Source: Pempheris klunzingeri (taxonomy: Eukaryota; Chordata; Actinopteri; Acropomatiformes; Pempheridae). From it: a stretch of 64,000 nt of DNA. Location of the stretch: contig NC_092027.1 of NCBI RefSeq assembly GCF_042242105.1, positions 13,820,721-13,884,720 of the forward strand, given 5' to 3'. Shown here in pieces: positions 3,948-64,000 of this stretch. The notes beneath the pieces are model-generated. The model searched no databases. It was given only the letters and a program-made list of their open reading frames with translations, and was not told where the DNA came from. Positions within the stretch are counted from its first letter, which is position 1, and each line of letters begins with the position of its first letter. A program made the translations under genes and the position numbers.

Positions 3948-6900
3948 TTATACCAGGTTGTTCTGGAGCATGTTTACCTCAGCGTTTTCCTCTGTGTTGT
4001 TAGGGGTGTGGGCTTGGTCGCGGACGACAGAGGTTGGACGGTTGTTCTCGTGTTTTGGGGAATGAGAGTTGAGGATGTTCATTGACCCCTCCTCCTTGGG
4101 AGCCAGTGGGGACTTTGCTGGGTCCTCCTGCTTCTGAGGGTCATCCTGCAGGGAGAGTTGGTAACTTCTTATACATGCCTCACACGTACAAACACAGCTC
4201 CATATGCACACAAACAGGACAAATAGGACACAAACTCCCATGGAGACTGATAGACTTCTCACCCTGATTTGTCACTGTATAATTTCACATGTATCAAAAA
4301 TTTACTTTATGTCATTTGAAGGGATTTGGTAACATCCAAGAGAGCTCTTCCCCATGCTAGAGATGGCAATTTTTAAATAATACAGGTCACAGTATGGACT
4401 GATAGTGGACACGTGTGCTTAGACCTTCATCTAATCAACTAATCATGCCTCAGAATTAAAAAAAAAAAAAACATTTGGACCTGTGACATTTAAAAAACTG
4501 CATTGCAGACCATGTGTCTGCAGGGCCTTTTTAGCCTCTAGACCTGACATTTAGAGCATCCGGAAGTCACAGACACTTATCTATAACCACTGCACTGAAA
4601 TGCCAGCAGAGCTCTAAGAGTGGTAGCTTATATTAAAAAAGCAAGTCACAGTTCGACCACTTGATTTAGCTCAGTCAAGTGTGGGTAATGAAGTGAGGTG
4701 AAGTGATTTTTAAAATCAATCAGTGTGTGCTTGTGTTTGCACAGTACATCTGTGTATGCATGTTATGTATGAAGTTGCAACGTCTGAGGTGTATGCAGTT
4801 GTCAGTGTGAGAGCTGTGTGTGTATGACTACAAAACCATTGTGTCTGTGCACATCTGCATGTGTCAGTTTGTTGATGTCTAAGCCATCGATTGATTGGTT
4901 TGTCACAGACATATGAAGGTCATGGGCACAGCAGGCAGTAAGTAGGACACCATTGATCAGCCATAGTGGTTAGTGCTGAACAAAACTCTCTAAATGCCCT
5001 TTCACACCAGAGAAAACAAGCTCAAAAAGCTTTCAGTCATAGAAGCAAAATTGCTTTATTCTGTTGATCTCATAGGATTAATCTGTGTTTACATTTTACC
5101 ACTATTAACAAGATTCCCCATTAGTTATTGAGATTGAAATTCTAGCCACTTACATCATCATAACCTTATATATTGTGCTGGCTTAGTAACCCAGTAGGTG
5201 ACTGATAAATCTGCCAAAGAACACAAACCCTTACTCACAGAAACATAGATAATGCATCAATGCAAACACACTCGTATTCACAGACACACATGCTGCTACA
5301 GAAAGACATTTGCTTTATAGAAGCAGCACAAGCACAGCCTTTGGAAGAGAACTGGGTGGAAAAGGGGAAACCTGCTGCGCTGGGACCCTAAAATGGCTGT
5401 CTGAGCTCTACGAGCACAAGAACGAAGCGAGCTGTTAAAACAAAATGGAGGCTCTGTTTCCTCATTGGGCTTCTCAGGAAGCTGCAGAGGCACAGGTAAT
5501 AGAGGAGAGGCAGCAAATGTGGGAACTCACTATTTATTCACACAGCAGTGACTACATAGCACCTCTGAACAACTGGTTGCAGGAAGCCTAGTAGGGGGTG
5601 ATTAATCATTTCACATACAGTGTATGTGGTATAAAGCTGATACAAGATCAGATGCAGGAAGAGTTTTGTGGAAGTGAGGTCTGCGGCAGAAAGGGGAGCC
5701 AAAACCTGGGCATCTAGTGGTTACACAGTGGGTACGTTCAAAGCAAAGCCAGGGAGAAAAACTGCTGCAGGATGTTTCCACTCTGCTTACCTGTAAGTGG
5801 TTATAAGGGTTTCTGGGTTTATATTCCCAGGTGTAGCTGGTTGTTGATGGCCTCTGAGGGGATCGGTGAGTGTGAACAGCATTAAAAACACATATACTGT
5901 ACATTACAAACTATTGGTGGAAATCCCAATGAGAAGTTACTGATTTAAAAGGGCACCACAGTGGGTTGTGGGATGTGTGCATAGAATTACAAGCTTAGGT
6001 TAGCAGTCGGGTTTTAGTTCTGTGAATCAGAACAGACAGATGGCCGTGCACATAGACAGAGAGATAAACCGAGACAGGCCAAAAGAAGTCAAATCACAAT
6101 GTAAGCTGGCAGACAGAAAACATAGGGGAGGACATTGAGAACAAAGAGGAAAATAGATGGAGGTTATGACACATAACACAAACAAACATTGGGAAAAGAA
6201 ATTACACATGAAGATGATGGACAGAAAGAATTAGACAAAGAGGATGAATGGAAGAAGAAAAAAAGAGAATAAACATGAGGAGAGTTGAGGCGTACCTGAC
6301 AGATAATGTTGTCATAGTACGCCAGGTTGTGAGTGTGAGCTTGGGGAGCAGGCGGAGGGGTGTCACACAGTTTCCTTACATTTGGCTGCGAGCCATCGGC
6401 TGTTGTGGAAACTGACAGGCCGTCCGTCTGCGGCTCGGTGCTCTGTGGGCGGTACTTACTGCAGGTGGTGGTGGTGGTGGTGGTGGTGGTGGGGAGCAGG
6501 AGAGCAAAGACAGAGAGATTTGTTTGATAAATATTTGCAGCTGGTGTGTTCGTGCATTTGTATCTCTCCAGATACACATTTTCCTACATTTCTCTGCACA
6601 GGGTGAAATGAAACGCATATACACAAAAATGCATCATCACAGTCAAAGAACGTAAATAATCCAGTGGATACCAAAGGGAATTAGATCAACTCTAAAGGCT
6701 ACATTGCAGCTGGTGACTATTAAATACAATTTGACTGTATTAGATGGATTTCTCTCACTGTTCACTGCTTGTCAAAACTTGTCTTCATCTCAATTTAGCT
6801 CCATTCTCCCCCCCCTTTCCCTCCTGTGCACTCTTCATCATTTCATTTCAACATGCTCCATCAGTCGTTAGGTTGCAAAGTCTTAGAGGAATTACACTGA

Positions 6901-14717: not shown

Positions 14718-15472
14718 ACATTGGCTTGACAAATGAGTTCACCCTCTGTACATATCCATGACCATTTCATACATTCTCCCCCTTCCTATAGTTTCTCCCT
14801 CTCCCCTTGCACACACATCCCTGCTCACACTGCCTTTGCACCACTACATTTGGCTATCTTCCCCTCGATCACCCTAAATACCATCATACAATTGCTTAAC
14901 TGCTGCTCTGTGACACTAATCCATTTCCCTGCTTCTCTGTCTCCTTTACTGTCACAAACAGCTAACAGAATGGCCTGCGTAGGCCTGAATACACGTTCCC
15001 CTCCTAAATGGGATTATGTCAAATACATTATGAAATAATTAAGACCAAATGCTCCATTCCTAGTGAACATTGCAGTTTCTTTCATTACTCATTGAATAGG
15101 GAGCGAATGATCCCACACCCTGCTGTGCAGAGCACCCCGCTGTCCCCATCAATTATCCTCAAAAAAAATTAAACACCAAATCTAAACTGAGTCCATATCT
15201 CAAATCCTCATTCGTAACAATGGAGGTGCGGGATTTTGAATGTGAAGGAGTTGGCAGGGTGGGAGAGGGAAAGATAGCGAAAGGGACAGTCACACGAGGG
15301 GAAGAGAGAGAGAGTGTGTGTGATTGGAATCAGGGGATGGACAGACATGGCCGAACAATGATGAGAAGGAGCTGGAGAGTGGTAGGGATGGAGAAACAGA
15401 AAAATGTTCACTGATGCACTGCCAAACAGAGCAGAACGAAATTGCTTCCGCACCCGCCTACCCCCCCCCCCC

Positions 15473-16985: not shown

Positions 16986-17125
16986 AATTCAAGCACAGTA
17001 ACTGAAAATACCATGTAGGTCATTTTCCAGTTTCGCAACAGCGAAATTATATTGTTTTATCGTCTGATTATGGTGCCTGTCATGCATTCCCTATATAGAG
17101 GAATAGTGCTTTCATTCCCTATATA
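16986..17125 (+). repeat. left arm of a palindromic MITE-like element
   Basis: A 140-base arm beginning AATTCAAGCACAGTAACTGA and ending CATTCCCTATATA. It is a perfect reverse complement of 18,729-18,868. The CATTCCCTATATA motif occurs twice inside the arm. The arms contain no coding potential. Removing the Tc1 copy and one TA rebuilds an unbroken palindrome of about 278 bases. Confidence 0.9.
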
Positions 17126-18728
17126 CAGTGGGGCAAAAAAGTATTTAGTCAGCCACCAATTGTGCAAGTTCTCCCACTTAAAAAGATGAGAGAGGCCTGT
17201 CATTTTCATCATAGGTAAACTTCAACTATGAGAGACAGAATGGGGGGAAAGAATCCAGGAAATCACATTGTAGGATTTTTAATGAATTAATTGGTAAATT
17301 CCTCGGTAAAATAAGTATTTGGTCACCTACAAACAAGCAAGATTTCTGGCTCTCACAGACCTGTAACTTCTTCTTTAAGAGGCTCCTCTGTCCTCCACTC
17401 GTTACCTGTGTTAATGGCACCTGTTTGAACTCGTTATCAGTATGAAAGACACCTGTCCACAACCTCAAACAGTCACACTCCAAACTCCACTATGGCCAAG
17501 ACCAAAGAGCTGTCAAAGGACACCAGAAACAAAATTGTAGACCTGCACCAGGCTGGGAAGACTGAATCTGCAATAGGTAAGCAGCTTGGTGTGAAGAAAT
17601 CAACTGTAGGAGCAATTATTAGAAAATGGAAGACATACAAGACCACTGATAATCTCCCTCGATCTGGGGCTCCACGCAAGATCGCACCCCATGGGGTCAA
17701 AATGATAACAAGAACGGTGAGCAAAAATCCCAGAACCACACGGGGGGACCTAGTGAATGACCTGCAGAGAGCTGGGACCAAAGTAACAAAGGCTACCATC
17801 AGTAACACACTACGCCACCAGGGACTCAAATCCTGCAGTGCCAGACGTGTCCCCCTGCTTAAGCCAGTACATGTCCAGGCCCGTCTGAAGTTTGCTAGAG
17901 AGCATTTGGATGATCCAGAAGAGGATTGGGAGAATGTCATATGGTTAGATGAAACCAAAATAGAACTTTTTGGTAAAAACTCAACTTGTCGTGTTTGGAG
18001 GAGAAAGAATGCTGAGTTGCATCCAAAGAACACCATACCTACTGTGAAGCATGGGGGTGGAAACATCATGCTTTGGGGCTGTTTTTCTGCAAAGGGACCA
18101 GGATGACTGATCCGTGTAAAGGAAAGAATGAATGGGGCCATGTATCGTGAGATTTTGTGAAAACCTCCTTCCATCAGCAAGGGCATTGAAGATGAAACAT
18201 GGCTGGGTCTTTCAGCATGACAGTGATCCCAAACACACCGCCCGGGCAACGAAGGAGTGGCTTCGTAAGAAGCATTTCAAGGTCCTGGAGTGGCCTCGCC
18301 AGTCTCCAGATCTCAACCCCATCGAAAATCTTTGGAGGGAGTTGAAAGTCTGTGTTGCCCAGCGACAGCCCCAAAACATCACTGCTCTAGAGGAGACCTG
18401 CATGGAGGAATGGGCCAAAATACCAGCAACAGTGTGTGAAAATCTTGTGAAAACTTACAGAAAACGTTTGACCTCTGTCATTGCCAACAAAGGGTATATA
18501 ACAAAGTATTGAGATGAACTTTTGTTATTGACCAAATACTTATTTTCCACCATAATTTGCAAATAAATTCTTTAAAAATCCTACAATGTGATTTCCTGGA
18601 TTCTTTCCCCCCATTCTGTCTTTCATAGTTGAAGTATACCTATGATGAAAATTACAGGCCTCTCTCATCTTTTTAAGTGGGAGAACTTGCACAATTGGTG
18701 GCTGACTAAATACTTTTTTGCCCCACTG
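17126..18728 (+). mobile_element. Tc1/mariner transposon, copy 1
   Basis: About 1.6 kb, starting CAGTGGGGCAAAAAAGTATT and ending with its inverted copy, flanked on both sides by TA target duplications. Long terminal inverted repeats contain the conserved AGCCACCAATTGTGCAAGTT segment. It carries one broken transposase gene. It lies between cspg5 and the micropeptide gene, inserted in the centre of a palindrome. A nearly identical second copy lies at 61,866-63,453 in the opposite orientation. Confidence 0.95.
17492..18512 (+). pseudogene. Tc1 transposase, inactivated (stop plus frameshift)
   Basis: The N-terminal half (17,492 onward, [20 protein letters not shown]) holds the paired-type helix-turn-helix DNA-binding domain ([13 protein letters not shown]) and the first catalytic Asp region ([11 protein letters not shown]). 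A premature stop follows SAKGPG at about 18,104-18,106. After MYREIL the frame is lost at about 18,157-18,160, and the C-terminal half resumes in another frame with the second Asp ([12 protein letters not shown]) and the Glu ([14 protein letters not shown]), the DD34E pattern of Tc1 transposases. The product cannot be made intact. The same frameshift is present in copy 2. Confidence 0.93.
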
Positions 18729-18868
18729 TATATAGGGAATGAAAGCACTATTCCTCTATATAGGGAATGCATGACAGGCACCATAATCAGACGATAAAAC
18801 AATATAATTTCGCTGTTGCGAAACTGGAAAATGACCTACATGGTATTTTCAGTTACTGTGCTTGAATT
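18729..18868 (-). repeat. right arm of the palindromic MITE-like element
   Basis: Exact reverse complement, as far as I can read, of 16,986-17,125. No clear target-site duplication was found outside the two arms. The arm ends 36 bases before the TATA box of the downstream micropeptide gene. Confidence 0.9.
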
Positions 18869-18904
18869 GCAGCAATGCGCTGGACCACACCTTTTAAGCA
18901 GCCC

Positions 18905-18910
18905 TATAAA
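18905..18910 (+). promoter_or_regulatory. TATA box of the micropeptide gene
   Basis: TATAAA followed by GGGG, in a CCCTATAAAGGGG context. A transcription start 25-30 bases downstream would fall near 18,935, giving a 5' leader of about 45 bases before the ATG at 18,982. Confidence 0.6.
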
Positions 18911-18981
18911 GGGGCCAAACAGAAATTAGACACAATTCTTCGCTTTGACTTGGTACACAACTATTAAGAGAGGGATAAAAC

Positions 18982-21900
18982 ATGGGCGTGACTGTGTAAG
19001 TAACTTTACCTTCAATTTAATACAGATAATATAGGGTCTATTTTTTAAGAAGCATTACTGTCTGGGTTTCCGATAAAAACGGTCTTACAATGGATGTTCA
19101 AACAAACAAGTCAATTTTCTCATGAGGTACAATGTTTGATTTAATAATGGTTGCATAATTTTAGTGTTGTAATGTAATGTTATTTCGTGTTGTAATTTAA
19201 AATGAATTAAAGCTGCAAGCAGCGTTGGAGGGCCCTCGCACCTCCGTTGCGTGCGGCGGCTCCGTCCTGTTGCTGGACTCCAACCCTTCCACGCGATAAA
19301 ACAGGGATTTTACCGAACAGAACATCAGTGCTTCTCTTCTACAGCTGACTCAATCAGTGAGTTTGTTTATGTCATTGTGTTACTTCGATGCTTGTAATGG
19401 TTAGTTTGGATCCAAAGAAATATTTATGTAGCACACAACAACACACACATACTAACCGAATGAGGCAGCAGCAGAGCAGCAGCTTCCTGTGTTCTGTGTG
19501 GTAAAATCCCTGTTTTAGTGAATGTAGTCTGGTGTGTGTGCAGAGAGCGATATAACGGCTGTTTGTGGTTAAACCAAAAGGATCTTCCAGGTCTCTCTCT
19601 GTAGGGATCCTTTCCATGATGCTGTCACACACTTAGAATAACACTCTGAGCCTGTCAGTGGATCAAACAAGCACTTTTAGTGGACCTACTGTGATCAGGT
19701 GCAGTTGGCAGTCGACTGAGGCAAACTGGACCAATTTTTTTCATTAAAGTTCCACTTTAATGTCTGACTGAGCTGCAGTGAAACGAGGAAAGCTTCAGTG
19801 TGACTGCAGGATTAGTTGGTTCTGTCATGAGGAAACCAGCTGGAGGTTCCTGCAGGGAGACTCTGACCCATGTGACGATGTGACACCTCATCGCTTCACA
19901 CCGTCGCATACTAAGAGCAGAAGATGGGCCGCATGTGTCGTACATCCTGATCACACACCTGAACACAACACAAGCTGATTTGTAACGCTGCAGTAGGAAA
20001 TATTACATTATAATTCTGGTTGAAATAACCCATTTTGTCACTACAATATTTATTTGAAGGTTTCCTTTAAAAACAAATGTGTCTGAGTGCTGTTCCCTTT
20101 GTGTTTAGATTTTTTTTGGCCTGTAAATGCACCAGTGATAATATCTAATTATATGAAAACACACTTTGTCCGTGACTACTCAATTTAAAAGAAGAGCTGG
20201 AGCTGGAGGCAGGACGTGGTTAGCCTAGCTTAGCATAAAGAGTGGAAGCAGGGGGAAACAGCCAGCCTGGATCTGTCCAGAGTTCAAAAACACACCTGTG
20301 AACACCTCTTAAACTCATAGACGAAAACACGTTGTGTCTGGGTTGAGTGTGAACACAAACAGAAATGTAAAAATAACACAGTGGTTTCAGGGTGAGTTAC
20401 GTGCTGGAGTGACCTCATCTCACTCTTGGAGAGAAAGCTAAATAGCACATTTCTGAAAATGTTGAACTGTTTCTTCATGCTACAATTAGACAATTAAATT
20501 AAAATGACATGTCATTTTATTATATGATACATATTATAATGTTATAATATATATATATTTATGTGCAACATTAAATCAGATCAGATCAGCTGATACTCAG
20601 TAAACAGTCCTTGATTGTATCCCAGTATGATATGAACAGTAAGACACCAGTCTGAAGAGTTCTGAACGATGCTCTACAGAGGAACAACTACACAGGAAAT
20701 CAATATTTAATTTCTAATTTAAGTTTTTATTTCAAATTATTTCAGATTTTTTGTTTGTTTGTTTTTTGTATGTTGGATAAACCGGAGCACCCGGAGAAAA
20801 CCAGTTTAAACACAGAGGAACAGATCAGATCCTGACAGACGGATCGCTCCCGTCTGTAAATCGCCAAAAATGCGTGAAAAATCCAATACAGCCTGTCCGT
20901 CCTTGGGAGCTGGATCTCTCCTTCACTGTGGTGCTCCCGGAGGTTTCTCTTTTCCCACTGGGTTTTTTGAGTTTTTCCTTCCCGAAGAAGGAGGGTCATA
21001 AAGATCCACCGGACTGATCCATTGGCCTCATCGACTGCTGGACTCTTTATTAGATTGTTTGTTCGCTTACACTTGTTTATTTCAGTGAACTTTGTAAAGC
21101 ACTATGAGACACTCTGTTGTGATATTGGGCTATACAAATAAAATTGAATTGAAAATTGAATTGAATATGGCCGACTTCCTGTTGGGTTGAGGTCATCGCT
21201 CCAAGAGACTTTTTGTGTTAGTCCTGAAGAGATACATGAACCCACCGAATTTCGTACATGTACATAAAACGCAGTTCCGGGGCTGAGTTTAGGTGGCACT
21301 ACAGAGCCATTTTGTCACACCCATTTGCGAAACCTGTGAAATACGTAATTTTTCACCACAACTGAATTTTCTGCAAACTTTCATGACTTTTTGTGCATGT
21401 TTAGGCCCCCAAAAATGCAATTCATTTGCCTAAAAAAGAAGAAGAAGAATAATTCCTTGCATTTCAACTATGTTTTTGGCCCCCTGGTCTCCTGGTTTTT
21501 TTCATTTCACGTATTTTTTCGAGGCCTACCTGCTCGAGGCCTATGAGGTCCGTACACCTCTTGGTTCTTGGGTACTGGCCCGTTTCCTCCCTTGCACATT
21601 TTTCCCCCACGCAGTTTCAATAGGGTCCTCGCACCGCTTAGTGCTCGGGCCCTAATTAGCAGTGTTTGAGGCCATCAGCTGTGTGATGCTGCACATGGCC
21701 ACAGGGTTTCTTTGCTGACATACTGAGCTCACAATGAGAGTGCTGATGTTCATTCAGCAAGTATAATGTTTAACCTGCGTATCCATCATCAGGTCAAATA
21801 CGAAAATATGATTATCAAAGATATAATACAGTCAAGCCAGGGAGGAACATTGTCTGTCCCAAATGTCATGGCATAAATAATATCACATGCAGTCATGCTG

Positions 21901-22215
21901 CTCTGAGTGAGTACAGATTCTGACTGATTCTCACTCCCTTTTTAGGGCATCTTTGAATTTTATGGAATTTTCTTTGGTGAGTTTGTCAATAACCACCCCT
22001 GGTTTGTTGATTATAATTGGAATTGTGGCTGTGGCAGCCATAGCAGCAGTGTTAGTGCACGCTCATCTTGGTAAGTAATTCAACAATCGCTCCAGAGGTC
22101 TGTTTTGTCAGAATAACACAAGTAAACTGCATTATGTTTAAATGCTAATTGTAATAATATCAGTTAGTGTCAGTGTTTTTCCTTCTTTTTTGCAGAAAAG
22201 CGACTGACAAGTTAA
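18982..22215 (+). CDS. unrecognised 52-aa single-pass membrane micropeptide, three exons
   Basis: I do not recognise the product. Coding exons: 18982-18995 (ATGGGCGTGACTGT, then GTAAGTAA donor), 21946-22070, 22196-22215; 159 nt, 52 aa. Exon 1 leaves two bases and exon 2 begins with the one base that completes a Val codon; exon 2 leaves one base and exon 3 supplies two. The start context is AAAACATGG. Exon 2 has a branch-like CTGAC and CTCACTCCCTTTTTAG acceptor and a GTAAGTAA donor. Exon 3 has a pyrimidine-rich TTTTTTGCAG acceptor. The protein begins MGVTVASLNFMEF. Its hydrophobic helix runs from about residue 23 to 46 (TPGLLIIIGIVAVA then AIAAVLVHAHL), and it ends EKRLTS, so the basic end is probably cytosolic. 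A TATA box precedes it and AATAAA follows the stop. Alternatives: only exons 2-3 are real with a start at 21,962 (42 aa), or these are the last exons of a longer membrane protein. Confidence 0.6.
19205..21660 (+). mobile_element. large composite fish interspersed repeat in intron 1 of the micropeptide gene
   Basis: Begins near AAAGCTGCAAGCAGCGTTGG (AGGGCCCTCGCACC follows) and ends near GGGTCCTCGCACCGCTTAGT (GCTCGGGCCCTAATTA follows), sequences I associate with widespread teleost repeats. Inside are a TTAGCCTAGCTTAGCATAAA fragment at about 20,220 and a retrotransposon-like tail at 21,090-21,165 (GGGCTATACAAATAAAATTG with ATTGAA repeats). No intact open frame is present. The class is uncertain and it may be several nested elements. 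Confidence 0.55.
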
Positions 22216-22248
22216 TTCATCAAATCACTGATGGAGGGACAACACTGC

Positions 22249-22254
22249 AATAAA
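22249..22254 (+). terminator. poly(A) signal of the micropeptide gene
   Basis: AATAAA, 34 bases after the TAA stop at 22,213-22,215. This is a compact 3' untranslated region that fits the small gene. Confidence 0.55.
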
Positions 22255-22799
22255 AGCAAAGATGGCAGACTCACTGATTACTCTTCCTGTTTTTCCGGAG
22301 TTAACCAAGGCAGTTATTGGAATGATCGCACTGGATGCCACTGATCTGATCAAAATGCAATCTAAGATAGCATGTGTTTCTGTAAGACACACGGTTTCTC
22401 ATACTTGGCTATGTGTTACTGAAGGGGAACCAGGAATCAGCTGACAAGAAGAAAAGTGGATAACCAGAAGCTTTAGAGAATGCAAAGACAAGGAACATAT
22501 TTTAGTTATTATTCCCTCACTTTGTTTAAACACGCCACACAATGTGTCTTAGAGAAGTGCCACATATGTAATTTGCTTTTATAAAACTTGAATGAACACG
22601 TATGATGTTATTGAAAACAAAAATGAATGCAACTGGATTCCCTCACTGTGCTTAATGAATGGGCAATTAGTCCAAACTTTTTGTACATTCAGTGCACAAG
22701 AGGGACACAGGGAAATGAAAAGTAATGTTATTGTTGTTGTATAGCTGCTGGGTACTTGGAAATGTTCCATGAGCACACATGCACAAACACACTAATGCT

Positions 22800-23020
22800 T
22801 GTCTTTCTGTAGTTGTGAGGGCACTCATTACTAAAATACACTCTCTAGCCCCTTAGCCTAAGCTGAACTGAAGTCTAAACTTGACCTTAAAACCAAGTTT
22901 TAACCCTCAAATGCCTCTTTGAAGTTGTGAGGATCAGGCAAATTGTCCTCACGATGCCGGAATGTCCTCACAACAATGGTTTAAACCCAACATTTGTTCT
23001 CATAACTATATAAAGAAGTG
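22800..23020. repeat. probable fish interspersed repeat with GTCCTCAC motifs
   Basis: CTAAACTTGACCTTAAAACC, TTTTAACCCTCAAATGCC, and repeated TTGTCCTCACGATGCC and ATGTCCTCACAACAATGG motifs resemble a common teleost repeat. No coding potential seen. Confidence 0.4.
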
Positions 23021-23087
23021 TTTGTGCACACACACACATACGTGTAAGACTAGAACAAACGATAAATTCAGTTTCATGTAAAACAAC

Positions 23088-23093
23088 TTTAAT
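23088..23093 (-). terminator. smarcc1: candidate smarcc1 poly(A) signal (ATTAAA)
   Basis: Reads ATTAAA on the minus strand, about 250 bases past the smarcc1 stop codon. Confidence 0.35.
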
Positions 23094-23343
23094 GAGCTGA
23101 GTTCAATCTTCAGATTTCTCAACTCCGGCATCAGAGCACAAATATTTCACAGATGTAAGACGGACTGAGCCGTTGACCAAATACACATCAACTGTGTGTT
23201 TATGCGTTTGTGTGTCTGTCAGTCTATAAACATGTGACTTCTGAAGAGTTAGACCTGAACATTTATGCCAGTGTTACATTTTGATGTGTGTCTGCTCCCG
23301 GTTGAAGGAGGATTCATGTACTTGTCTTGTTTGTCTGGTCAGT

Positions 23344-33151
<9,808 letters not shown>

Positions 33152-47336: not shown

Positions 47337-49000
47337 GTAAGTAAACCGTAACTTCCCCAGTTTACTTGCTGTCGCGCCTTAGCCACGTTAGCTAACAAGC
47401 AAGCTAATCTGTAAGAAACCGTGGTGACAGCTCGAAGTCATTCAGCAAGCTGAGACAGACAGTGTGTGACCGCGGAGGATTCATTTACAGTGTCTGGCTG
47501 GTACTGGTTATTAAAACACACTGAATTATATGGCCATGGAAGCTAACGTTTGCCATTGAGCTACCGGTGCATTGAGACAGAATTTCACGGTGTGTTACCA
47601 GTTGTCATTGTGGCAAACTAGCTTGTTAGCAGTGCCCAGAGACAGGTTGAACAGATTTTTTTTAAAATCTAATTCATCTACAATAACAGCGGGGTGTGTG
47701 TGTGTTTGTCTGTGTGTGTAAGTATGTGTGTGTGGACTGTCAGGACATTGTTAAGATTCCTCAGGTGATGCGCGCGCGTGTGTGTGTGCCAGTTTGGCAG
47801 GAGAAGAGACACCACTGCAGGCTGGTATGTTAGATAATGCTTTGCTAGGAGTTTTCTAAAACCCATCATGTGATGCAGTTTTCTTTTTCTACCCAGACAG
47901 TCCAGGGGTTTCCCGTATGATTAGTGTGACGCTTTGCCGCAAAGCTCCATGGTAGTCCTGCTGTATGACATGAGCTCCTTCACTACTGTACATGCCGTCA
48001 AAAGTTGAATCATGTTTGTTTTACATTCTGTGTCCTTCACAAAGGCTCTTACTGTTTAAATAAGACGCTGTTTCCGGCTAAATTCACAAGTTGCCCTTTG
48101 CTCCTCTCTTTCTCTCTCTCTCTCTCTCTCAGACTCATATTTTATATCTATTTATGGGTCTGTTGGGTGGCTGATTGTGCACTGTTAAAGTGGTGTCTCA
48201 GTATGTGGATTTGTGTGTACATGTGTAAAATGTATGCGCAGGCTAGTTAATGTGTGGCATCCATTGCTACTAGTGTCTCGGGCCTCTTAATGCTTGTTGA
48301 CAGTGAAGCCCAGCAGGTCATAGAGTGAGAAGATCGCGTGGGCTTTGCTTGTCATCCGGCATCCCAGCTAGAGTCACCCATGCCTGGGGTTTCATGAAAT
48401 ATCCTGCTAATTTGAGCAATGATGACAGTTGCACTCCTTTCCCCTTAAATTTAATTCTGCACCAGAATCTCTACACACAATCACAACATAGGTGAATTAT
48501 AGATGCTGAGTTTGTCAGCTAAAGTATACGTTTGTAGGCATAGGTGCCAGTTGATGTAGCATACATTGATGTAGCTCCAGGAAAAATCTTGAAAATCAAG
48601 CTAATTATCTGCACCCAAAGTGATATTTGAATTAGAAATTTGAGGGTTGAGCATTTAAAGAATTGCATAAGTCAGAGAGGGGTCTAACTGTGAACATTTA
48701 AAGCTGAGACAAATGGAAAGAAAAAGGGGACATGAAAGAGAGCTTTAAAATTGAAAAATCAGTGATGTTAATCACTGGTCTCTTCAGGCTCACTTGCTGC
48801 AGGAAGACTGGGAATTGAAAGGGCGAGAGGAGGGACGAAGATGCATCACTGGCTTAGAGGCAGCGGAGAAAAGCGCGTAGGCTGCTATAAGAGGATTCCT
48901 CCCTGTCAGATCTCTCTATCTCTCACCCTGAGAGGCAAAAACCACACACACAAACCACATACTCTATTGTCATGTCTACTTAGCTACAGGCAGTCCACTG

Positions 49001-49180
<180 letters not shown>

Positions 49181-52100
49181 CGGAAGCAAAAAAGCCCCCC
49201 CACTCCTTTTCACCAAGGCGTGAGCAATCTGCTATGAAGAGGACCTCGGGGGGGAGAGCAAGGTGGGAAGTGATGATGCAACAGGGTTAGCTACAGGCAA
49301 AGATGGTCCAAATAAAGAAAATAGCAACAGACGGCATGAAAAATGCGCAATATAAACCGCAGAGCGGCATCAAAACAAAATACTGAATTCCTAGAAATGG
49401 GCAAACAGTGTAAACAGCTCTTAGCAGGACCAGCAGGTCAAGCTGTGAGCTCTGGGCTTATTCGAGGCTGTGCCCTTTACGACCACAGTTGCATAACCCT
49501 GCCTTCACCTTTACTTGGACACCCCACAGCTCCTCAAAATAGGTCCTTAACATATTTTGCTTCCCTTCAAGTTGAGACAAGCTTGAAGTCGCTGACCTAG
49601 TTTGGAAATTTTGGGTGGAGTCATATTGCCACAGTTCCTGGTTCTGACATAGGTTTGTGCAGTTAAACCATTTATTAGCGGTCTGGGTGCGTTTGTAGTT
49701 GAGTCAGCTGAGGATACTCTAGCTAGTTAAGTTTCATTTCAACTTATTACATCTATTTGACAACTCTTCACCTCCCTGTAGCTTTAATTCGCTGAGAGCT
49801 AAGTAATGTGGGTGTCATTATCACTATAAGCCTAACCAGTAGTTTGTGTGGCCTGCACCCTGTACCACAGGAAAAAGCAGCTGGGGCAGCTCTGTCACTC
49901 TCAAAACCACTCTCTTTGTCTCTCTCTCTCTCCCTTCCTTTCTTCCCTCCATTCAAGCCCTCAATCTCATTGGCCCACTCACTTCCTGAAAAAAGAAGTT
50001 TCCAAAGCACAAGTGTAATAGGAAATGAGGTAATGAGCAGGGAGGGATGTGCATGTGTGTGGGTGCTCCCCTTATTCATTCTCACTTGGACTTGCTTCAA
50101 TTCTCTCTCCTCCAGCTTCCCTGAACAGGTATGTTCTCACTTGACTATCGAGCACCAGAGGACACTCTGTGTTTTGGTAGTGCTTCTTACGTGTTTGTAT
50201 CAGTCCATGTGAAATAGTGTGTGCGTGTGTGTGTGTGTGTGTGTGTGGGGGGGGTGTTATTCAGTAACTCTGCCAGGACATGCAGGCACATTTACAACAA
50301 GGATTAGGAATGCAAACTCAAAGGAGACCTGCCTGTGTTGGAACAAGTCCTCAGAAGGAGGAGTCAAAAATAAGCTCATTTAGACTGCCAGGCTTGTGCG
50401 TGCGTGCGCGTGTGTGTGGCAGAGAGTTTAAGACAGAAGCGTGGGTGTAAATTCAGAGGAACGAGCTGTCAACTTTAGCTAGCTCACAGGAACAGGTTTC
50501 GACAAACCAGACATTGAATAAACACACTTGCACAGACACACTTGTGTAATGTATGACACATTCTGTCAGTCACTCCTTGGCAAGTGATTCCCTCTATCAG
50601 CATTGGTTAAAAAAAAACAAAAAAACTCAGGCTCCTAAACACATTGATTAGATCCATCTCTTGAGCCCGTTCAGATCTCAGAGAGGCGCTTGTCAGTATC
50701 TTTGCTTATCTCAGTGATCAGGTGGTTGTGTGGAACAGCACAGATTGAAACCTAATGAACTCTCCTCTTTTATTGACCCTACTGTCTCAAACCTTTTGAG
50801 TTAGCCATCCCTCGAGTTGTTACACACCTCGTTTATGTGTCCATTTATCTCTTCCTCAATTCATTTCACCATTGATCTGTGCCTTGTTCATCCTCCTGCA
50901 CCGCCTGTCTCTCCCTCTCCTGCATTTATCGTGTGTCTACTTGTTGATCATGTCATTGGTTTGTTACTTGTGCTTGTCAAGCTTGCTCAGCCACTTATCC
51001 TTAACACTGGTTATTCATGTGTATGCGTTTGTGCCGGTCAGTGTGGTTGAGCTTCACAGAAGCAGCTCACCAGCTGCTGCATCATTTGGTGTGTGTGTGC
51101 GCACGCTCTCTCTGGCTTATATTGATTTCTGCCATGATCTGTGAGTCCATATTGACATAGAGATGGCTAACAGTTAGCCATACTAAGAAGGAAGATAAAC
51201 ATCTGCCTGATAACATAATTATGCTCTATAGTGTACTCCCAGGGTGATTAGTTTTCTATTTTCCTCCACCAGTTGCTCGCTGCTGTCTGCAGTATGTCAA
51301 TAGAGCTTAGAAATCTTGGAGCCAGGGCATTATGTGCTGGTTGTACCACTGCCTCTTGTGGTTTTAACATAGTTTTAGATTGAATCCTAATCATTTTTGT
51401 GGGTGAGTAACGCAGAAGTTGTTCATTGTTAATTATATCAAAATTGGAAGGTTAAACAATTAGTGGATCGGCATGATATAAGTCATGCAAAACATTCTCT
51501 GGGACATTCAAGGACAATTAAACAATTTTGACAATACATTTTCTAGGTTTTCTCAAAAATTGCGTATCTTGGGGATTTAAAGTGTTGTTTGGTTAAAACA
51601 AACAATTGGATTGTGTAATTCCTTTGTACTCTTCATGTTTTTTGTACACATATGCCACATTTATGTGTCATGTTTTACATAATTCAAATTATTTTCAAAC
51701 CATATCTGCTGCTGCTTTCGTATCCCTGAAGTCAAGATTTAAGTTGCTGCTGAGGTAGGAAGCAAACATACAGATGGATGACAAATTAAAGGAAAATGTA
51801 AAGCATCTTATTAGAGTGTTAGGCTGAGCTTCATCGACAGCTTCAGTGCTCCTCGATATAAATTCTCCAAGTCTCCACTGCCCGACAGGAGGGATCAAAC
51901 ACCCTTTCTTTGAAAGTGCCTTCCCTCATTTGGTGTTTGGGGGATGAGAAAAGTGTAGGGAAAGGGTTGATCAGTATGTTTATCTGCACCCACTAACTAA
52001 GTAACTAAGCATTACTGCAGTCTGGTATGATACAGGTTATAAAAAAGCCACATCCACTCCCAACACATATATCCACTGTGTCACATTCCCCAACTGTGTG

Positions 52101-55222: not shown

Positions 55223-64000
<8,778 letters not shown>

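Follow-up and report, generated by a model that had tools for sequence, protein, structure and literature searches.

A candidate three-exon gene for a 52-residue single-pass membrane micropeptide between CSPG5 and SMARCC1 in Pempheris klunzingeri

The interval between CSPG5 and SMARCC1 in Pempheris klunzingeri probably harbours a real gene on the + strand, in which a TATA promoter and three short exons would give an mRNA of ~260 nt encoding a 52-residue single-pass membrane micropeptide. Judged from its sequence, the gene is best read as either lineage-restricted or fast-evolving. Exons 2 and 3 look much stronger than chance under the tests that we used, with thresholds set post hoc. Micropeptides encoded over very short exons form a class that gene finders easily miss and, if this gene is real, it shows that sequence alone can reveal one when its promoter, splice sites, frame and span all agree. 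To our knowledge, a spliced mRNA of this size would be among the smallest known.

We analysed a window of 64,000 nt (C16:13820721-13884720) from a genome of 646 Mb in 439 contigs. The cspg5-smarcc1 interval named in the original prediction was borne out by profile matches: two for Neural_ProG_Cyt on the - strand, one for Myb above its cut-off and one for SWIRM-assoc_3 below it (Table 1). The candidate gene is read from the + strand and is flanked by CSPG5 and SMARCC1, which are on the - strand; SMARCC1 may come near or overlap the candidate's 3' end from the opposite strand. The window also contains a Kelch gene, which we take to be KLHL18, an XPG_N gene, presumably ASTE1, and a Hyccin gene.

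Table 1. Positions in the window of the candidate gene's predicted parts, its neighbours and the repeated DNA near it.
Feature	Position	Strand	Details
CSPG5, Neural_ProG_Cyt domain	3951-4271 and 6275-6478	-	Profile matches
Tc1-like element	17429-18509		Pfam HTH_SB, HTH_Tnp_Tc3_2, DDE_3
Local inverted duplication, outer part of arm	18730..18868	.	Other copy 16986-17124, 139/139 identical; adjoins Tc1-like element
Putative core promoter CCTATAAAGG, TATA box	18903..18912	+	TATAAA at 18905
Candidate exon 1	18935..18995	+	Putative start ~30 nt past TATA; 14 coding bases, MGVT + 2 bases
Predicted intron 1, GTAAGTAA...CTCCCTTTTTAG	18996..21945	+	2,950 nt; donor 18996, acceptor ends 21945
High-copy repeat in intron 1	19216..20857	.	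1,642 nt; block may extend to 21659
Candidate exon 2	21946..22070	+	125 nt, would encode ASLNFMEFSLVSLSITTPGLLIIIGIVAVAAIAAVLVHAHL including membrane span; from translation, splice ranks, shuffles, single-copy DNA
Predicted intron 2, GTAAGTAA...TTCTTTTTTGCAG	22071..22195	+	125 nt; acceptor TTTTTTGCAG ends 22195
Candidate exon 3	22196..22272	+	EKRLTS; stop TAA 22213-22215; AATAAA 22249; putative 3' end ~22270
SMARCC1, Myb and SWIRM-assoc_3	26263-26634	-	Myb above cut-off; SWIRM-assoc_3 20.7 bits, below 27-bit cut-off

Checking of the sequence and its translation placed every element of the original prediction (TATA box, ATG, donors, the CTGAC at 21920-21924 in intron 1, acceptors, stop and AATAAA) exactly where it had been put. 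The coding pieces 18982-18995, 21946-22070 and 22196-22215 (14, 125 and 20 bases) join into a CDS of 159 nt for 52 residues and a stop, and spliced translation keeps the frame across both junctions with the 2+1 and 1+2 phases that had been proposed. The predicted mRNA measures 263 nt between two putative transcript ends. Its start ATG at 18982, with A at -3 and G at +4, is the sole ATG of candidate exon 1 and the first in the predicted transcript. The sequence TATAAAGG occurs a single time on the window's + strand. The promoter also fits the CArG pattern CC(A/T)6GG, which is present four times in the window, so that the fit may be incidental; the idea of a muscle promoter at CCTATAAAGG was dropped, with neither an E-box nor a MEF2 site found in 18730-18960.

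Splice sites were scored with matrices written by hand and ranked over the + strand of the window. Acceptor 1 ranks 12th (score 7.45) and acceptor 2 ranks second (10.97) among 4,396 AGs, and donor 2 is 52nd of 4,305 GTs with a score of 4.56. Donor 1 is weak: it scores 0.7 bits, a value equalled or exceeded by 335 of the 4,305 GTs, itself included. The donors had been described as perfect, which holds for the intron side of the intron 1 donor (GTAAGTAA) but not for its exon side (TGT). Between 13.8 and 24.0 kb on the + strand GTAAGT occurs twice, exactly at donors 1 and 2. For comparison, ten control stretches assigned to KLHL18, SMARCC1, CSPG5 and Hyccin were each represented by their best site; some of the assignments came from the translation as read and not from a family match, and the best site of a stretch may not be the true one. 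The best acceptors of these stretches score from -0.19 to 9.57 and the best donors from 1.98 to 7.16 (n=10); against them, acceptor 1 exceeds nine of ten, acceptor 2 all ten, donor 2 seven and donor 1 none.

The weakness of donor 1 bears directly on whether exon 1 is correctly placed. Exons 2 and 3 could be real in a transcript that starts elsewhere, with translation beginning either in a different first exon or at an in-frame ATG in exon 2; the latter would give a 42-residue product (MEFSLVSLSITTPG...) with the same span, which lies wholly inside exon 2. We regard this as unlikely, as a TATA box, a good-context ATG and GTAAGTAA follow one another in a non-repeat stretch of ~100 bases, and the six other + strand donors scoring at least 3.5 between 13.8 and 21.9 kb are unsuitable: those at 15226 and 16765 have poor intron sides, 17577 and 17717 fall in the Tc1-like element, and 19532 and 20392 fall in the high-copy repeat. 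When ATGs in 18730-19215 and 21660-21900 were scanned, ATG 18982 with donor 1 was the sole pair compatible in phase with exon 2 and having a donor score of at least 0. A longer gene with other upstream exons was also considered and rejected, there being no better non-repeat donor with a good intron side.

Relatives of the predicted product were sought within the genome and in sequence collections. A search of its own genome with the product raised a single first-look candidate which, when scored, was the product itself. A second copy of CSPG5 is on C8, where a stretch of 90 kb carries SMARCC1-like pieces at its left end and CSPG5-like sequence from 57 kb on, and so includes the interval between the two; no convincing copy of the product was detected in these 90 kb, the best tblastn match having an E of 0.15. 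As a positive control, the same settings recovered two SMARCC1 pieces, one of 28 residues (E 2e-9) and one of 20 (E 3e-7), and, since such short pieces are detected, a similarly conserved copy of the product on C8 should have shown. A tblastx search of the region recovers the same SMARCC1 pieces, but its low-complexity filter may have masked the span; when the exons by themselves were compared with the C8 interval and the filter was switched off, 18 weak matches came back, the best at E 0.78. The SMARCC1 piece at 23487-23570 (-) has 61% identity with its C8 duplicate.

The original prediction could match the product to no known micropeptide, and searches of Pfam, NCBIfam and PDB sequences likewise returned no convincing family. 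Pfam gave CEND1 only (E 0.54, below cut-off) and NCBIfam gave transduce_GlnX (E 0.11), both weak and overlapping the span. PDB sequences at E<=10, among which regulin structures are presumably present, gave three MerF only (E 0.57-0.69), again weak and overlapping the span, and no regulin. In viral and prokaryote contigs, a collection distinct from fish genomes, 280 and 592 pattern matches were obtained, of which tblastn confirmed none. In the open-access library searched, none of the titles and abstract openings listed for this interval and for fish micropeptides names such a gene, and the string IIIGIVAVAA is absent from that library. A structured RNA was considered and rejected, as every Rfam family stays below its cut-off in 18700-23600; the sole match there up to E 0.5 is mir-1912 at 22640-22704 (E 0.44, with 20.6 bits where the cut-off is 72).

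Such a lack of relatives in the collections searched is also what a spliced long non-coding RNA or a decaying gene would show, its exons transcribed and spliced and its frame free of selection, and the second frame of exon 2, which is open as well, points the same way. This explanation seems improbable to us because the start, both phases and the stop agree, and because an open frame with a span this hydrophobic arose in only 11 of 20,000 shuffles of exon 2, compared with 7,677 that had some open frame.

For the exon 2-3 part of the gene, we counted models consisting of a strong acceptor, an open exon, a strong donor, a strong acceptor, an in-frame stop and a poly(A) signal. At strict thresholds the + strand of the window has two models, both of them this exon pair in its two frames and one with the membrane span, and the - strand has none; neither strand of the 90 kb around the duplicated interval holds a model at strict thresholds with poly(A). 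In 1,623 dinucleotide-shuffled windows, one strand each, the mean was 0.006 models and none had a membrane span, although the shuffle figures overstate the contrast because shuffling breaks pyrimidine runs and because the splice thresholds and the TM criterion were chosen post hoc, after the sites were known. Relaxing the thresholds to 5/3/5, with poly(A) still required, lets one TM-bearing model through on the + strand of C8, and at the loosest setting (3/1/3, no poly(A)) there are 88 to 271 models per strand across the four strands of the window and the C8 90 kb, the two strands of the window having 211 and 271, of which 9 and 22 carry a span of at least 2.0. Motifs resembling splice sites and a promoter that fell into line by chance in intergenic DNA would fit the ordinary donor 1, the post hoc motif thresholds and these loose counts, but this is very unlikely given that under strict thresholds with poly(A) this pair stands alone on both strands of the window and of the C8 90 kb and that no shuffled window gave a model with a span.

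Taken as a whole, the anatomy favours a gene because the signals agree in frame, both acceptors and donor 2 are strong, the shuffles rarely reproduce the pair, GTAAGT marks both donors and the DNA of exons 2-3 is single-copy. The same reading is weakened because donor 1 is weak, neither a paralogue in the genome nor a convincing family match was found, exon 2 can also be read through in another frame and the criteria were post hoc. The three-exon single-pass micropeptide originally proposed is the best fit to this anatomy, with exons 2-3 appearing strongly non-random by splice ranks and shuffles, whereas its description as regulatory was an analogy that similarity to the regulins does not back; a regulatory function of the product is plausible but unsupported.

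The predicted product has 52 residues, and its most hydrophobic window of 21 residues (24-44, mean Kyte-Doolittle 2.74) is the predicted span. With fewer than 100 residues and one predicted span, it falls in the structural class of single-pass membrane micropeptides. There is no K or R and one E among the N-terminal 21 residues; of the last ten, two are K/R, one is E and two are His. Under the positive-inside rule, such a charge distribution predicts an N-out/C-in arrangement, in which the N-terminus is probably outside or luminal and the EKRLTS tail cytosolic. The helix is rich in Ala and Gly (G30, A33, A35, A36, A38, A39), which suggests packing against another helix. A larger transporter, channel or complex might offer it such helices in the membrane, or it might pack on itself, and the packing could tune or stabilise the partner. 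Stannin and other short single-span proteins have a short N-terminus and an Ile/Val/Ala-rich span; their likeness to the candidate is one of composition only.

Sequence similarity to PLN, SLN or other regulins was not found in the PDB and Pfam searches. SERTM2 (PMC12019361) is a single-pass micropeptide with an N-out/C-in topology, the same as that predicted for the candidate, and its reported partner is a larger membrane protein, the TASK1 channel. It is longer, with 89-90 residues against 52, and has a 34-residue non-cytoplasmic N-terminus with a putative N-glycosylation site; its coding region is reported to be highly conserved among vertebrates (PMC12019361). The likeness of SERTM2 to the candidate is one of architecture, with no established sequence relation. 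The regulins (sarcolipin, phospholamban, myoregulin, DWORF, ELN and ALN) resemble the candidate in having one membrane helix and a size of 31 to 66 residues for the members with a stated length (PMC8396278). Sarcolipin and ELN have a cytoplasmic N-terminus and a luminal C-terminus, and MLN and ALN have cytoplasmic N-terminal domains (PMC8396278); in contrast, the charges of the candidate predict, by the positive-inside rule, the opposite topology.

A fuller account of the gene can be offered only tentatively. The product may be a relative-less N-out/C-in micropeptide from a lineage-restricted, possibly unannotated gene that arose or was retained in one copy of the interval, and might be an accessory subunit, specific to fish, of some larger membrane protein. 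Should the gene prove real, fish biology would gain a new candidate regulator amenable to simple knock-out, and a test of whether genes of this kind emerge de novo next to long-standing neighbours or persist in a single copy once a genome has been duplicated.

Repeated and duplicated DNA surrounds the candidate exons. The repeat family at 19216-20857 in intron 1 is young and high-copy: a query with 19216-21659 returned 6,963 first-look candidates, of which 40 were scored and yielded 103 matches, the query itself among them. Identity to 19216-20857 is 93-98% in most of the 40 scored copies, and the next 802 nt (20858-21659) have two partial matches only among them. If 19216-21659 represents one insertion, the older intron 1 would have been ~0.5 kb (506 nt). 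Several scored copies have extra adjacent copies of a 102-base segment (query positions 1541-1642). The DNA of exons 2-3 (21660-22700) has one genomic match, itself, and is single-copy, on which ground an origin of these exons from a repeat or transposable element was rejected. A repeat origin of exon 1 from 18869 onward was rejected as well, as 18730-19215 matches itself and a local inverted copy of 139 bases, which stops short of the TATA box.

This inverted copy belongs to a pair of arms (16986-17333 and 18521-18868) that flank the Tc1-like element. The arms are 348 bases long and identical at 332 of 348 positions; counted from the outer end, the first mismatch comes after 215 matching bases. 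The outermost 139 bases have no further match in the genome, and the arm end at 18868 is 37 bases upstream of the TATA box. The duplication is either the result of a recent aberrant transposition or inversion or a fold-back artefact of assembly. A second copy of a Tc1-like transposase, recognised by reading its translation only, is located at 61963-63151 (-), and long CA/TG microsatellites are seen in translations at 48980-49210 and 63435-63650.
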